NCBI RefSeq assembly: GCF_014284155.1
Contig: NZ_JACOFZ010000001.1
Coordinates: forward strand, 762,545 to 826,544
Source of the DNA: Affinundibacterium nitidum
GTDB taxonomy: Bacteria > Pseudomonadota > Gammaproteobacteria > Burkholderiales > Burkholderiaceae_D
DNA length: 64,000 nt
Direction of reading: 5' to 3'
Every line of letters starts with the position of its first letter. The first letter of the stretch is position 1. A program made the translations under genes and the position numbers. Shown one piece after another: positions 58,113-64,000 of this stretch. The notes under the pieces were generated by a model that saw only the letters and a program-made list of their open reading frames with translations, was not told the DNA's origin and made no database searches.

Positions 58113-60116
58113 TTAAGCTAACACAGCTTTAACTGTGGCAACGACGTTGTCGACCGTGAAGCCAAAGTGCTTGAATAACACGCCTGCTGGAGCAGATTCA
58201 CCGAAAGTATCGATACCGACAACCGCACCTTCCAAGCCCACATACTTATGCCAGAATGCTGTCACACCCGCTTCGATCGCCACACGTGGCAGGCCTTTAC
58301 CCAAGACGCTTAATTGGTAAGCTTTGTCTTGACGATCAAACACATCAGTCGAAGGCATAGACACGACGCGTGCTGGAATACCTTGTGCGGCCAATTCTGC
58401 AGCGGACTTCACCGCCAATTCGATTTCAGAACCTGTCGCGATCAACACCACTTTCGCGTCAGCCGCATCTTGCAGAATATAACCACCACGCGCGATATCA
58501 GCGACTTGTTGCGCTGTACGCTCTTGGAATGGCAAATTTTGACGAGAGAAAATTAAAGTGGATGGGCCATCATTGCGTTTGATCGCTTCAGCCCATGCAA
58601 CGGTGGATTCAGTCGTATCGCATGGACGCCAGTTATCCAAATTCGGAATCAAACGCATGCTAGAGATATGTTCAACGGATTGATGCGTAGGACCATCTTC
58701 ACCCAAACCGATGGAGTCGTGCGTGAACACAAACAAACTACGAATCTTCATTAAGGCCGCCATACGAATCGCATTGCGGCTGTAATCAGAGAAGGTCAAA
58801 AAGGTTGCGCCGAATGGCAAATAACCACCATGTAAAGCGATACCGTTCATGATCGCGCTCATACCAAACTCACGCACGCCATAGTTGATATGATTACCCG
58901 CTTGGTTTGCACGTACCGCCACGCATTCTTTCCAATTCGTTAAATTCGAACCAGTCAAATCAGCAGAGCCGCCCAAGAATTCTGGCAGACTTGGTGCGAA
59001 AGCTTGAATTGCATTTTGACTGGCCTTACGTGTAGCAATTGTCTCTTTCTTCTCAACTACGTTTGCAACCGCTGCTTTGACAACATCGTCAAAGTTCGCT
59101 GGCAAGACACTATTCATACGACGTGTCAAATCAGCGGCTTTAGCTGGATAAGCTGCGGTATAAGCGGCAAACGTCGCATTCCATTCTGCTTCCGCTTTCG
59201 CGCCATCAGCTTTTGCATCCCATGCGCTATACACATCTGCTGGTACTTCAAATGGTGGATAGTTCCAATCGATATTCGCGCGCACGGCTGCAACTTCTTT
59301 GTCACCCAATGCGGCACCATGCACATTGTGTGTGCCTTCCATATTCGGAGAACCCTTACCAATTACAGTACGGCAGCAAATCAAGGTCGGCTTTTCAGAG
59401 GCTTTTGCAGCGATAATTGCTTGATTAACTGCTGCAACATTGTGTCCATCCACACCACGAATCACATTCCAACCATAGGCTTCAAAACGCGCAGGTGTGT
59501 CGTCGGTGAACCAGCCTTCGACATGGCCGTCGATGGAAATACCGTTGTCATCCCAGAATGCAGTTAATTTATTCAGCTTCCATGTACCAGCCAAAGAACA
59601 AGCTTCGTGCGAAATGCCTTCCATCAAACAGCCGTCGCCCATGAACACCCAAGTGCGGTGGTCGACGATGTTCGCGCCATCGACATTGAATTCCGCTGCC
59701 AATAATTTTTCGGCGAGCGCCATACCCACCGCGTTGGTGATACCTTGACCTAACGGTCCTGTGGTTGTTTCCACGCCTGGTGTGATATGCACTTCAGGAT
59801 GACCCGCTGTTTTGGAATGCAACTGACGGAAGTTACTAATCTCAGACATAGGCAAGTCATAACCTGTCAAATGTAACAATGAGTAATGCAACATGGAGCC
59901 GTGGCCATTCGACAAAACGAAACGATCACGATTCACCCATTTTGGATTTGTTGGGTTATGACGATAGTGACCAGCCCACAAGGCAACTGCAATCTCTGCC
60001 ATCCCCATTGGAGCGCCAGGATGACCAGAGTTGGCTTTTTGAACAGCGTCCATAGACAATGCGCGGATCGCATTGGCCATCTTAGAAGTGATTTCAGGCT
60101 GGAAAGTGGATGTCAT
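58113..60116 (-). CDS. tkt: Transketolase
   Basis: From the ATG at 60116 the enzyme has about 667 residues. It transfers two-carbon units between sugar phosphates using thiamine diphosphate. [20 protein letters not shown], the TPP-binding [16 protein letters not shown], and [18 protein letters not shown] are all intact. A longer frame to 60188 would add 24 residues and is not needed. It heads the tkt-GNAT-gap group and is divergent from the polyamine island. Confidence 0.97.
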
Positions 60117-60303
60117 AGCGGCAGAGAATAAAGTTAAGAAATCGGTTGTAGCAGTCGCTAATCGAATGAAACACTTCGAGCAGACCACGTTTCGGTGAAA
60201 TGTTGCTCAAAATCATTCATTTAATTAACAAAGTCCGTTATTTTACCAGAGCAGCTCGCTGCAGAATACAATTGCGACTTTCGCATCATTTAAGAATAAA
60301 AAT

Positions 60304-61539
60304 ATGGAAGGCTTACATCTCACTGCCGACTGCTTCGAATGCCAAGCTAACGAGCTCCTTTTGACGAATCATCAACATTGCGCTCCTCTATTACGTAAAA
60401 TCACGGAAGACGCCGGTCTGACCATCGTTGGAGAAAAGTTCTACCCCTTCGTTCATGAAGACGGTAAAGCAGCTGGATTCACGGGCACACTGCTTCTTGC
60501 AGAATCTCATATAGCCATCCATACATGGCCAGAAAAAGCAGCCGCAACCCTAGACGTTTATGTCTGTAATTTTGAAAATGATAATAGCGAGAAAGCCAGA
60601 ACAATCGTTGACCTAATCATTCAACTACTTCAGCCCAAGCGGACATTGCGACAAGAATTACTGCGTGGTGTTCCAAGTGAAGTTCCTCAGACAAAAATAA
60701 CTGAAAGACTGAGCCCTTTCACGTCGATGCAAACGGCGGCGACACAAAGCCTTGTCGCAAAACAAAGCGAATTTCAGCAAATTGAAATTGCTGAGACTCC
60801 AGAATTTGGCAAAATAATGCGCATCGACGGCGCCTTGATGACATCGGAAAAGGATGAGTTTTTCTATCACGAAGCACTGGTCCACCCGGCATCTATATGC
60901 ATAGGAGGTCCAGAATCTGCGCTCATTATTGGCGGTGGGGATGGCGGATCAACTGAAGAGTTGTTGAAATATGATTCGATCAAGAACATTCTCTTATGTG
61001 AAATCGATGCCCAGGTTGTTGAGATCGCACGTCAACATTTATGTTCAATCCATCACAACGCATTCGATGATGGCAGAGTCAACATTCAGCATAGAGATGG
61101 CTTCGCATTTATCGAAGAATGCACGCAAAAATTCGACTTGATATTGCTGGATCTAACAGACCCGATCGCTCCAAACGGCAGCAATTTAGCGGAATCATGT
61201 TTCAGTGGCAATTTCTTCGACGCTTGCTATGAAAAGCTCAATGATGCTGGGGCACTTGTACTCCACTTGGGCAGCAGGTTTTATCATCCAAATCGATACC
61301 TTTCTAGCCTAGAGAAACTCAACGCTCGTTTCGACCTTGTGCGCCCCTATTCGGTATTTATACCTTTATATGGCGCTCTATGGGGGATGGCGGTCGCCCT
61401 CAAAGATGTTCGAAAATCCACCATTCAAGATCCACTCAACATGAGCGAAGACGAAATCAATCTTGCACTGCAACAGCACCAACTTAAAGCACTTCAGTAC
61501 TACTCAGCGCAAACCCACGTTGCGATGTTCAGAATTTAG
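60304..61539 (+). CDS. AdoMet decarboxylase-spermidine synthase fusion (SpeD-SpeE)
   Basis: The 411-residue protein joins two enzymes. Residues 1-125 are a prokaryotic-type S-adenosylmethionine decarboxylase: LHLTADCFECQ, and AESHIAIHTWPEKAAATLD, where the Ser 68 of ESH would form the pyruvoyl group. Residues 140-411 are a spermidine synthase: FFYHEALVHP, ALIIGGGDGGSTEELLKY (nucleotide site) and LLDLTDPIAPNG. One polypeptide could therefore make decarboxylated AdoMet and use it to aminopropylate putrescine. It leads a polyamine-conjugation cluster and is divergent from tkt. Confidence 0.92.
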   Translation: MEGLHLTADCFECQANELLLTNHQHCAPLLRKITEDAGLTIVGEKFYPFVHEDGKAAGFTGTLLLAESHIAIHTWPEKAAATLDVYVCNFENDNSEKARTIVDLIIQLLQPKRTLRQELLRGVPSEVPQTKITERLSPFTSMQTAATQSLVAKQSEFQQIEIAETPEFGKIMRIDGALMTSEKDEFFYHEALVHPASICIGGPESALIIGGGDGGSTEELLKYDSIKNILLCEIDAQVVEIARQHLCSIHHNAFDDGRVNIQHRDGFAFIEECTQKFDLILLDLTDPIAPNGSNLAESCFSGNFFDACYEKLNDAGALVLHLGSRFYHPNRYLSSLEKLNARFDLVRPYSVFIPLYGALWGMAVALKDVRKSTIQDPLNMSEDEINLALQQHQLKALQYYSAQTHVAMFRI

Positions 61540-61675
61540 TTCAGGATGCGGCCGAATAAAAATTGATGCATAACAACGACAACGGTAAAACATTTAATTT
61601 AAGACCAATGTCTTGGTTATGCCTAAGTATTACAATCAAGCGCTTCAATATCGAGAAAAACAAAAAGGACGAAGT

Positions 61676-62119
61676 ATGAGTCAACAATTCAAGCGCAGGG
61701 CATCAAAAACATTGCCCCTATTGTTGGTAACATCCGCAGCGGTGGTCAACCTAACTGGATGCGGAGATGACGAGCCTAACTCCAATCTTGCCACTGTTCG
61801 GGATGAATACAAAAGTCTCGAAGATTGTGTGCAAGATTGGGGTAGTAGCGTTCCTTGTGAGCCCCAAAAAGCTCCAGAAGGAAGCTCCTCGCTTTCGAAC
61901 ACTGGCAATACTAGTGGCAGTCATATCTATTCTGGGCACTACTTCGGCCCATCTTACTATGATGGCCATCGTGATGTCGCTCAACGCAGTTTTCTAGGCA
62001 GCAAATTTGATAGCTCAACCGCACACGTTAGCGATAGAGCGGTAAGTCGAAGCGTGACTCGCTCTGTGAGCAGAGGCGGCTTTGGCTCGAGCTCTCGCGG
62101 TTTCTCGGGCGGAGGTTAA
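61676..62119 (+). CDS. DUF1190 (YgiB-like) lipoprotein
   Basis: The 147-residue protein starts at the ATG 61676 (AAGGA upstream). The N-terminus is a lipoprotein signal ending in NLTGCGDDE. The middle resembles DUF1190/YgiB (RDEYKSLEDCVQDWGS) and the C-terminus is a Ser/Gly/Arg-rich low-complexity tail (SVTRSVSRGGFGSSSRGFS). The next gene starts two bases after its stop, as YgiB precedes YgiC in E. coli. Its role in polyamine modification or envelope function is inferred from context. Confidence 0.85.
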   Translation: MSQQFKRRASKTLPLLLVTSAAVVNLTGCGDDEPNSNLATVRDEYKSLEDCVQDWGSSVPCEPQKAPEGSSSLSNTGNTSGSHIYSGHYFGPSYYDGHRDVAQRSFLGSKFDSSTAHVSDRAVSRSVTRSVSRGGFGSSSRGFSGGG

Positions 62120-62121
62120 GC

Positions 62122-63252
62122 ATGATTCGTGAGTCTTTACAGCCACGAAAAGATTGGCAACAACAATTCGAAGATCTTGGTTTTTCATATCATTCGATTG
62201 ATGGTCTATATTGGGATGAGCGTTATGCATATCGATTCAATGCCCAACAGATCGATGTTCTAGAACAAGCAACGATAGATTTACACCAAATGTGCTTGCA
62301 GGCCGTTGATCATGTTGTACGCCACGGGCAAATTGAAAAATTTGCGGTGCCACGTTCGTTCTGGTCCGAAGTTGAAGAGAGCTGGCGCGACAAAGAGTTC
62401 TCATTGTATGGCCGCTTCGATTTGAGTTGGAATGGCAGCGGTGCGCCGAAAATGTTGGAATACAATGCCGACACGCCAACGGGTTTAGTCGAATCTTCAG
62501 TCGCACAATGGTATTGGCTACAAGATGTTCATCCGAACGCCGATCAATTTAATTCCTTACACGAAAAATTAATCGAGCAATGGAAAAAATTTGATGGCAA
62601 AGGTGTCATACATTTCGCCTCCGCAGACAGTGAAGAGGATATAGGCAACCTTTCCTACCTAAGGGATACGGCTATCCAAGCTGGATTTGCAACCAAACAA
62701 AACTTGATCAGCGATATTGGTTGGGATGAGGCGAATGCCGAACTGGTCGACGCAAATGACACCAAAATCGAGAATCTTTTCAAGCTATATCCATGGGAAT
62801 GGTTAAGTCGCGAGCAATTTGCAAATCATCTATTGTCTCGGCCCGCTCGCATTATTGAACCTGCATGGAAGATGATTTTATCGAATAAGGCCATTCTTCC
62901 AGTACTATGGGAGATGTTTCCAAATCATCCAAATTTACTTCCTGCATTCGCTGAGTCTTGGCGCATTAGTGGCAATTTCGTAAAAAAACCTCTACTTTCT
63001 CGCGAGGGTGAAAATATTTCGATATACGCCGATGGCGAAGTAATGCACACACCCGGCGAATATGGAGATGAGGGATACATTTACCAAGCATTTGCGCCAC
63101 AACCGAAATTTGATGATGGCATTACGCCCGCCTACACTTCAATCGGCTCCTGGATTGTCGGCGACGAAGCCGCCGGTATCGGCATCCGCGAAGACGAAAC
63201 TCTGATTACGAAAAATACGAGCCGTTTCGTTCCCCATTACTTTGTTGAATAA
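62122..63252 (+). CDS. Glutathionylspermidine synthetase-like ATP-grasp ligase (YgiC/YjfC-like)
   Basis: The 376-residue protein is a stand-alone synthetase domain of the glutathionylspermidine synthase family, lacking the amidase domain of E. coli Gss. The ATP-grasp features include KMLEYNADTPTGLVESS (residues 110-126), the EPAWKMILSNKAILPVLWEM block and FVKKPLLSREGENI with its ATP-binding lysines. It would ligate an amine, plausibly spermidine from the enzyme encoded upstream, to a peptide or protein carboxylate. Encoded in a tight operon with DUF1190 and DUF350 genes. Confidence 0.9.
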   Translation: MIRESLQPRKDWQQQFEDLGFSYHSIDGLYWDERYAYRFNAQQIDVLEQATIDLHQMCLQAVDHVVRHGQIEKFAVPRSFWSEVEESWRDKEFSLYGRFDLSWNGSGAPKMLEYNADTPTGLVESSVAQWYWLQDVHPNADQFNSLHEKLIEQWKKFDGKGVIHFASADSEEDIGNLSYLRDTAIQAGFATKQNLISDIGWDEANAELVDANDTKIENLFKLYPWEWLSREQFANHLLSRPARIIEPAWKMILSNKAILPVLWEMFPNHPNLLPAFAESWRISGNFVKKPLLSREGENISIYADGEVMHTPGEYGDEGYIYQAFAPQPKFDDGITPAYTSIGSWIVGDEAAGIGIREDETLITKNTSRFVPHYFVE

Positions 63253-63297
63253 CACACTCGACGAAATCAATAATTGAATCTATCAAGAGAGCACAAC

Positions 63298-63705
63298 ATG
63301 AATATGCAATTTTTTTCCGAAGGCTTAATCGCGTTTGCAAGTCACTTTGCTTCTTCACTTGCATTTTTATTTCTATTCATCGCGGTATATATCAGAATCA
63401 CACCCTACAAAGAGATTGCCCTTATTCGCGAAGGCAATACCGCTGCCGCAGCAAGTCTTTCAGGAGCAGTTCTCGGCTACTGTGTTGCGCTTGCGTCGTC
63501 GGTTGCCCATAGCATTGACTTACTTGATATGTTGGTTTGGGGAAGTATCGCCTTGTTCGTTCAGCTTCTCGCTTTTTTCGCAACTCGACTCATGCTTCCA
63601 GATCTCATGAAAGACGTTCCTCAAAACAAACTCGCATCGGGAATTTTCTTGGGCGCTATCAGCCTTGGCATGGGAATACTCAATGCTGCTTGTCAAAGCT
63701 ATTGA
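63298..63705 (+). CDS. DUF350 membrane protein (YjfL-like)
   Basis: From the ATG at 63298 (AAGAGAG upstream) the product has 135 residues and about four membrane helices. It contains IREGNTAAAASLSGAVLGYC, the conserved DUF350 core, and LPDLMKDVPQNKLASGIFLG between repeats. In E. coli YjfL stands in a cluster with YjfM (DUF1190) and YjfC (ligase), and the same three families are here. Its function is unknown; it may be a channel or part of a membrane complex. Confidence 0.9.
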   Translation: MNMQFFSEGLIAFASHFASSLAFLFLFIAVYIRITPYKEIALIREGNTAAAASLSGAVLGYCVALASSVAHSIDLLDMLVWGSIALFVQLLAFFATRLMLPDLMKDVPQNKLASGIFLGAISLGMGILNAACQSY

Positions 63706-63754: not shown

Positions 63755-64000
63755 ATGCCACGTTTTTACTGCGCTTTGCCGCTCCATGTTGGTGCGACCA
63801 TTGATCTGCCCGAAGAGATCGCCCATCACTTGTTCGTTTTACGCCTTCAAGTCGGAGACAAAATTGAACTATTTAATGGCGAAGGTGGTTCGTATGTATC
63901 TGTACTCAATGAGATAGGAAAAAAACGCGCAAATGCTGAAATTAAGCTGCATCTAACTCAAGAGTGCGAATTGCCTTTTGGCCTCAGTCTAGCTCAAGCG
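63755..64000 (+). CDS. rsmE: 16S rRNA m3U1498 methyltransferase RsmE, 5' part
   Basis: The frame opens at the ATG 63755 and runs off the window end. The 82 visible codons start MPRFYCALPLHVGATIDLPE and continue EEIAHHLFVLRLQVGDKIEL, the N-terminal PUA-like domain of RsmE. This methyltransferase modifies U1498 of 16S rRNA. The SPOUT catalytic domain would lie beyond the window. No ribosome site is strong. Confidence 0.88.
   Translation, partial: MPRFYCALPLHVGATIDLPEEIAHHLFVLRLQVGDKIELFNGEGGSYVSVLNEIGKKRANAEIKLHLTQECELPFGLSLAQA

Follow-up and report, generated by a model that had tools for sequence, protein, structure and literature searches.

Organization of the gene block

The window analysed here is a 64,000-nucleotide stretch of the genome of Affinundibacterium nitidum (NCBI RefSeq assembly GCF_014284155.1, 4.38 Mb in 80 contigs; contig NZ_JACOFZ010000001.1, positions 762,545 to 826,544 of the forward strand). 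Towards its end lie four plus-strand genes, which encode in this order a SpeD-SpeE fusion, a DUF1190-like lipoprotein, an ATP-grasp ligase of the glutathionylspermidine synthetase type (GSP_synth) and a DUF350 membrane protein. The subject of this report is the predicted ligation of polyamine to protein by this block, with the C-terminal tail of the lipoprotein as the candidate substrate. The four genes and their order, first put forward in an original prediction made from the letters of the window, were confirmed by the reading frames and by Pfam, in which the lipoprotein falls below the DUF1190 cut-off. The features are listed below (positions are those of the window; aa, amino acids; AdoMet, S-adenosylmethionine).

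60304..61539, plus strand: SpeD-SpeE, a class 1b AdoMet decarboxylase–aminopropyltransferase fusion, 411 aa (Pfam AdoMet_dc and Spermine_synth, PRK00811, conserved residues)
61676..62119, plus strand: DUF1190-like lipoprotein of the YgiB/YjfM type, 147 aa (lipobox LTGC, tail, position directly 5' of the ligase; Pfam below cut-off)
62072..62116, plus strand: C-terminal tail RGGFG...SGGG, the proposed site of recognition and modification by the ligase (motif association with the ligase)
62122..63252, plus strand: stand-alone GSP_synth ATP-grasp ligase of the YgiC/YjfC type, 376 aa (Pfam, similarity to YgiC/YjfC, invariant residues)
63298..63705, plus strand: DUF350 (YjfL family) membrane protein, 135 aa (Pfam, 125.3 bits)

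The underlying open frames, all on the plus strand, run from 60304 to 61539 (411 aa), 61613 to 62119, 62122 to 63252 (376 aa) and 63274 to 63705, translation of the lipoprotein probably starting at 61676 and that of the DUF350 protein at 63298. The lipoprotein, ligase and DUF350 genes form a tightly packed trio, with gaps of 2 and 45 nucleotides (nt), and the fusion is set 136 nt upstream of it. A scan of the region for promoters and terminators gave no excess over shuffled sequence (9 versus 6.3, s.d. 2.8, and 4 versus 3.2, s.d. 2.1).

The ligase and its lipoprotein neighbour

The ligase covers the whole of the GSP_synth profile (positions 1-371 of 371; 486.8 bits, cut-off 29.3) within its 376 aa and carries no other domain, in agreement with the original prediction of a synthetase-like enzyme without the amidase half. 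That no separate hydrolase would be present also fits the genome, in which no match to the CHAP amidase domain was found anywhere, other kinds of hydrolase not having been sought. The closest solved structures, aligned over nearly the full length, are YgiC (7uk8, E = 2.4e-106) and YjfC (7uk6, E = 9.8e-103), both annotated as peptide--spermidine ligases in the NCBI record of E. coli K-12. Alignment with 37 ligases from other loci gave 37 columns that are invariant in all 38 sequences, including R98, D100, E113, N115, K250, K289, R294 and E357, which we take to be residues of the ATP-grasp active site. In a tree of 73 ligases, the window ligase clusters with relatives from its genus and family and with two loci from one other family, outside both the YgiC and the YjfC clades. 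It is the only match of this family in the genome, and is predicted to be a peptide-spermidine ligase of the YgiC/YjfC type.

The lipoprotein matches Pfam DUF1190 (PF06693) at 18.6 bits, under the cut-off of 22, and is assigned as DUF1190-like because of its position, its lipobox (LTGC) and its tail. Its C-terminus reads RGGFGSSSRGFSGGG, and no other frame among the 107 of at least 100 aa in the window has such an end. The E. coli proteins end in the same manner, YgiB in RGGFG...SMGG and YjfM in RGGYG...HWGG (in full, RGGYGRSSSARGHWGG).

Association of the tail with the ligase

Two samples of ligase loci were compiled. The first comprises 68 loci from Pseudomonadota, 8 from a family search and 60 hand-picked from the 101 positive genomes among 397, mostly one per genus, with stand-alone ligases preferred and bifunctional GspSA-type enzymes left out. 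The second, from another class, was drawn through both Pfam families at one locus per genus (35 loci and L220, making 36), and omits five genomes already in the first sample and same-genus repeats; one of its loci, L240, has a stop within its Pfam match. A partner is a protein encoded within the fetched stretch around the ligase (~6 kb on each side, extended to ~8 kb at the 8 family loci), mostly, not invariably, directly upstream of it. Partners were sought in 83 loci with a tail-trimmed profile, built from 16 seeds that were chosen for having the tail, which was then removed; the window lipoprotein is matched by this profile, of which it was itself a seed.

Every one of the DUF1190 partners found by profile in the two samples (93/93) bears an RGGFG-like motif near the stop. 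In the first sample, the core motif lies no more than 45 residues from the stop in 57/57 such partners, 47 of which end in Gly-Gly. At 9 further loci without a profile match, the small adjacent protein still has the tail (of looser form in L050) and 4 of the 9 end in Gly-Gly; these were found through tail and position, and are therefore supporting evidence only. A tailed partner is thus present in 66 of the 68 loci. For the second count the pattern was altered to admit GGL and to require a subsequent G, T, K or S, and the core motif was found in 36/36 partners with GGL admitted and in 34/36 without it. Between the last GG[FYW] or GFG match and the stop lie 5 to 30 residues, and a second match past the core accounts for some of the shortest values.

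The last residue of the 93 partners is Gly in 63, Ser in 24, Thr in 5 and Glu in 1, and Gly-Gly ends 63/93. Among the 66 first-sample partners 51 end in Gly-Gly; when the last 30 residues are shuffled ~3.6 such ends are predicted, and only 4 of the 761 control genes have one. The looser first pattern matches the last 45 residues of 15/761 control genes. A strict requirement for a C-terminal Gly-Gly (47/57 in the first sample but 16/36 in the second) was rejected, given the partners that end in Ser, Thr or, in one case, Glu, and Gly-Gly is retained as the usual form. Tail type showed no clear match to ligase clade: the Gly-Gly label changes 12 times on the ligase tree, against a shuffled mean of 13.7.

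In the opposite direction, the ligase family was found in 68 of the 71 genomes having Pfam DUF1190 in the phylum sample (397 genomes); for the class sample (347 genomes) the figure is 51 of 55. The motif is absent from all nine DUF1190 proteins that have no ligase of their own (0/9). Six of these comprise one protein from each of three genomes in which no ligase was matched (G232, G457 and G505) and three additional copies, one of them in G470 and two in G310, where a third, weak match of 23.9 bits was left out of the comparison; the remaining three are from G762 (L218, no ligase) and from L053, which has two extra small copies. Since the tail tracks the ligase in this way (93/93 versus 0/9), the neighbouring lipoprotein is favoured as the substrate, and ligase and tail would appear to function together. 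The original prediction had named this lipoprotein as a likely target, a proposal that the tail strengthens. It had also advised comparing gene order across genomes, where the neighbours do not vary freely: tailed lipoprotein and ligase occur together in 66/68 loci. DUF350 (125.3 bits in the window, cut-off 26) lies within the fetched stretch near the ligase in 43 of the 68.

Three further loci were noted in these samples. L221 has a ligase and no profile match, its adjacent frame ends in RGGFGAIGRFFSGGS, and it was left out of the counts. The two small tandem DUF1190-like proteins of L053 (L053:8048-8410 and L053:8513-8863), from another class, lie downstream of the ligase and have no tail. 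The stand-alone ligase of genome G443 (L072/L097) is divergent (277 bits), has a cysteine-containing neighbour and no tailed partner, and possibly acts on a different substrate.

The SpeD-SpeE fusion and the history of its site

The fusion matches Pfam AdoMet_dc (84.5 bits, cut-off 25) and Spermine_synth (136.2 bits, cut-off 22.9). Among NCBIfam models it passes PRK00811 (275 bits, cut-off 260) and falls below TIGR00417 (195 bits, cut-off 249.6) and TIGR03330 (74.3 bits, cut-off 75.65). E67-S68-H69, H73, C88, GGGDGG and DLTDP are invariant across six aligned fusions, and are presumably the residues expected for self-cleavage and catalysis. It is the sole AdoMet_dc match of the whole genome, which has three further Spermine_synth matches, each below 47 bits versus 138 for the fusion, and an OKR_DC_1 decarboxylase that is the likely source of putrescine. 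Fusions from Ca. Pelagibacter with the same domain order are described in PMC11107197 as functional AdoMet decarboxylase–aminopropyltransferases that yield spermidine, plus spermine or thermospermine in assay; the predicted product of the window enzyme is spermidine.

The block is flanked by the following genes, which we take to be transketolase and RsmE.

58113..60188, minus strand: tkt, transketolase, 691 aa frame, divergent from the block
63755..64000, plus strand: rsmE, 16S rRNA methyltransferase (PUA_4 match), co-directional, 49 nt after the DUF350 gene and continuing past the window end

Named relatives of the fusion were compared (the best 80 of 580): 72 are fused, 7 are split and 1 gave no match, and a ligase is near at least 12 of the 80 (a lower bound, as some loci are short). 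Loci with tkt, fusion and rsmE number 28 among these 80; 23 have the three genes in this order, 11 with a ligase and 12 without, and in the 12 ligase-less loci the fusion adjoins rsmE. Conversely, the fusion stands beside 5 of the 68 first-sample ligases, 5/8 in its own family and 0/60 elsewhere.

Within the genus, rsmE was searched in 40 Undibacterium genomes, and 31 of the 36 matches were examined (5 left out). Upstream of rsmE, 19 of the 31 genomes have the four-gene block, 1 has the fusion alone, 11 have neither and 0 have the trio alone; copies elsewhere in the genome were excluded for 4 of the 11. On the other side of the block tkt is found in 14 of the 19, and is not within the fetched stretch in 5. 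As the same four genes precede rsmE in 19/31 genomes, their order is not due to chance. Across the wider family (146 genomes), 5 genomes have ligase and fusion, 2 the fusion alone and 3 the ligase alone (G036, G068 and G090; loci L017, L012 and L011), and these last three have the tailed lipoprotein and no AdoMet_dc match.

The simplest reading of these comparisons is that the fusion resided first in the tkt–rsmE interval of Burkholderiales, and that the trio entered between fusion and rsmE. The description of the locus as a synthesis-and-ligation island consequently holds in part: the fusion would be an older resident, with a ligase near at least 12/80 of its relatives and the fusion itself at 5/68 ligase loci, while the trio was not seen without the fusion in the 31 Undibacterium genomes. 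One Undibacterium genome (L212) retains tkt-fusion-rsmE without the trio, a natural intermediate, and the arrangement in L105 (Undibacterium squillarum) is identical. L195, an Undibacterium genome without the block, has a 1422 aa frame between tkt and rsmE. Other family members (L181-L185) have a cluster of MFS-SpeE, DUF350 and DUF4178-like genes, named through their resemblance to a published description, and no RGGFG tail was found among the gene ends printed for these five loci.

Relation to known systems

The window ligase resembles E. coli YgiC and YjfC in being a stand-alone relative of GSP_synth, and its lipoprotein resembles YgiB and YjfM in lying directly upstream of the ligase and in its kind of tail. 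It differs in the clade of the ligase and in having SpeD-SpeE beside it. The trio had been said to mirror the YjfM/YjfC/YjfL set, which is borne out for the families and no further: YjfI, YjfJ (PspA-like) and YjfK (DUF2491) gave no match in the window's own locus (L010, 18 kb), and the ligase is outside the YjfC clade. Each of the three is near the ligase in 17 of the 68 first-sample loci. A reading of the trio as a copy of the E. coli yjfIJKLMC operon was rejected, given the absence of yjfI/J/K matches and a ligase outside both the YgiC and YjfC clades. Bifunctional GspSA has a synthetase domain related to the window ligase, together with an amidase half that the window ligase lacks.

The gene association itself is already published. 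PMC11237479 describes operons of an ATP-grasp ligase with DUF350 and DUF1190, and a variant with AdoMet decarboxylase and polyamine oxidase, and credits Li et al. 2019 for the operon link. These operons share the families of the window, AdoMet decarboxylase in the variant; in the window, the decarboxylase is fused to an aminopropyltransferase and there is no YjfI/YjfJ/YjfK match. YgiC and YjfC are termed peptidylpolyamine synthetases in PMC12568646. The statement that the joint function of these families is not known is thus only partly true, as such operons have been described in PMC11237479 and YgiC and YjfC are annotated as peptide--spermidine ligases. No account of the tail was met among the results listed in open-literature searches for it or for a function of DUF1190, which does not show the tail to be unpublished, and an earlier proposal of YgiB and YjfM as substrates may exist in the primary papers on these enzymes.

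Discussion

The mechanism proposed here starts from what was observed directly, namely the protein families, their conserved residues, the order of the genes and the link between tail and ligase. We give a slightly better than even chance to the locus being a protein-polyamine ligation module, in which the tail of the lipoprotein is the substrate of the ligase together with spermidine. SpeD-SpeE would make decarboxylated AdoMet and form spermidine by transferring the aminopropyl group of this product to putrescine. The ligase would then recognize the tail of a newly made DUF1190 lipoprotein through the RGGFG-like motif and a small C-terminal residue, Gly-Gly in the present case. GspS-type enzymes act on a C-terminal carboxylate. 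Because of this, and of the peptide activity of YgiC and YjfC, the end of the tail is the simplest target; by analogy with YgiC/YjfC and GspSA, the ligase would use ATP to activate the C-terminal carboxylate and form an amide bond to spermidine, so that the C-terminus of the lipoprotein is probably amidated with spermidine. We infer that modification would take place before or during export of the lipoprotein, and that it would leave the membrane-anchored protein with a permanently polycationic end directed towards the envelope. The DUF350 protein would be the membrane partner of the module.

Several observations weigh against this interpretation. The motif pattern was written after the first sample had been inspected, and a tailed partner is absent in 2/68 ligase loci (L070 and L072). 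In the second sample the Gly-Gly end is found in 16/36 partners, the rest ending mostly in Ser, and label changes on the ligase tree were as low in 73 of 500 shuffles. Of the nine tail-less proteins, six from outside ligase loci match only the start of the DUF1190 profile, their matches stopping at positions 74-120 of 159, and may on this account be a separate subfamily that never had the tail; the G232 protein alone reaches further, matching positions 2-151 of 159, has the near miss KKGGVGG and is still tail-less. Also within the nine, the last 45 residues of L053c include GGFL, which is counted by the looser first pattern only. Two tailed DUF1190 proteins (L217 and L219) have no ligase found in their assemblies. 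Both are near contig ends, the contig of L217 stopping ~200 nt past the Pfam match and that of L219 within 1 kb, and both were left out; with them counted, the tail is present in 2/11 ligase-less cases. In L232, a relative of L219, the ligase is ~4 kb away on the side where the L219 contig ends. In the window, the last Gly codons of the lipoprotein (GGC GGA GGT) contain GGAGG at 62111-62115, 6 nt before the ligase start. As the lipoprotein is exported and an ATP-grasp enzyme needs cytosolic ATP, modification must precede export. Finally, the spermidine route of the window is not obligatory, since G036, G068 and G090 have the ligase without an AdoMet_dc match.

Two other explanations of the tail were weighed against its modification. 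The ligase might couple spermidine to some small peptide or thiol in free form, with the DUF1190 protein binding, sensing or displaying the product and the tail docking unmodified. GspSA, a sequence relative of the ligase, makes glutathionylspermidine, and a last residue that varies among G, S, T and E is easier to accept in a docking motif than in a reacting end. The RGGFG-like core (93/93) is also steadier than the last two residues (Gly-Gly in 63/93). However, Gly-Gly abuts the stop despite a core-to-stop distance of 5 to 30 residues, which suggests that the end itself matters, and YgiC is reported, in PMC12506659, which cites Sui 2012, not to synthesize glutathionylspermidine; we regard this possibility as unlikely. 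Less probable still, indeed doubtful in our estimate, is that the tail serves in sorting, folding or translational coupling and has nothing to do with ligation, its Gly-Gly codons being the ribosome-binding site of the next gene. The GGAGG before the window ligase would fit this, as would the strong ribosome-binding word in 15 of 97 tails, all 15 ending in Gly-Gly. Yet Gly-Gly also ends 52 of the 82 tails without a strong word and 9 of the 11 in which the ligase is not immediately next (L093, misassigned, was left out), and the tail is absent from the DUF1190 proteins that have no ligase of their own. As the sole cause of Gly-Gly, a ribosome-binding site is therefore insufficient; translational coupling may add to the Gly-Gly end, and does not account for it.

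A separate question is whether the fusion belongs functionally with the trio. We think it fairly probable that the neighbouring fusion supplies the spermidine in Undibacterium. The contrary case, somewhat less probable and still a serious one, is that their closeness is incidental, an ordinary Burkholderiales spermidine enzyme at tkt–rsmE having had the trio inserted alongside. A ligase near at least 12/80 of the fusion's relatives, 12 of the 23 ordered tkt-fusion-rsmE loci free of a ligase, a fusion in just 5/68 ligase loci and three family genomes with a ligase and no AdoMet_dc would all fit that case. Against it, the Undibacterium block is present or absent nearly as a unit (19, 1, 11 and 0 of 31), and the fusion is the sole AdoMet_dc match of its genome. 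Joint loss of fusion and trio may be a single deletion, however, which makes the unit-like presence moderate evidence only.

Returning to ligation onto the lipoprotein, we tentatively extend it, with a chance just short of even, to the YgiC/YjfC-type ligases of Pseudomonadota as a whole. These would be dedicated protein-polyamine ligases, the usual target being a tail on a small membrane-anchored protein, with an RGGFG-like core and a small last residue, mostly in the form of Gly-Gly; the tail would be a transferable signal, better conserved than its carrier, and the envelope proteins bearing it would end in spermidine. The corrected history of the site would in addition illustrate how a ligation module became the neighbour of an ordinary spermidine gene. 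For YgiC and YjfC of E. coli K-12, the link between tail and ligase points to concrete candidate physiological substrates, namely the C-terminal ends of YgiB and YjfM. If the proposal is true, it would represent a polyamination of bacterial proteins at the C-terminus, unlike the lysine-based hypusine, in which spermidine is tethered to proteins of the bacterial envelope, and DUF1190 would gain a function.

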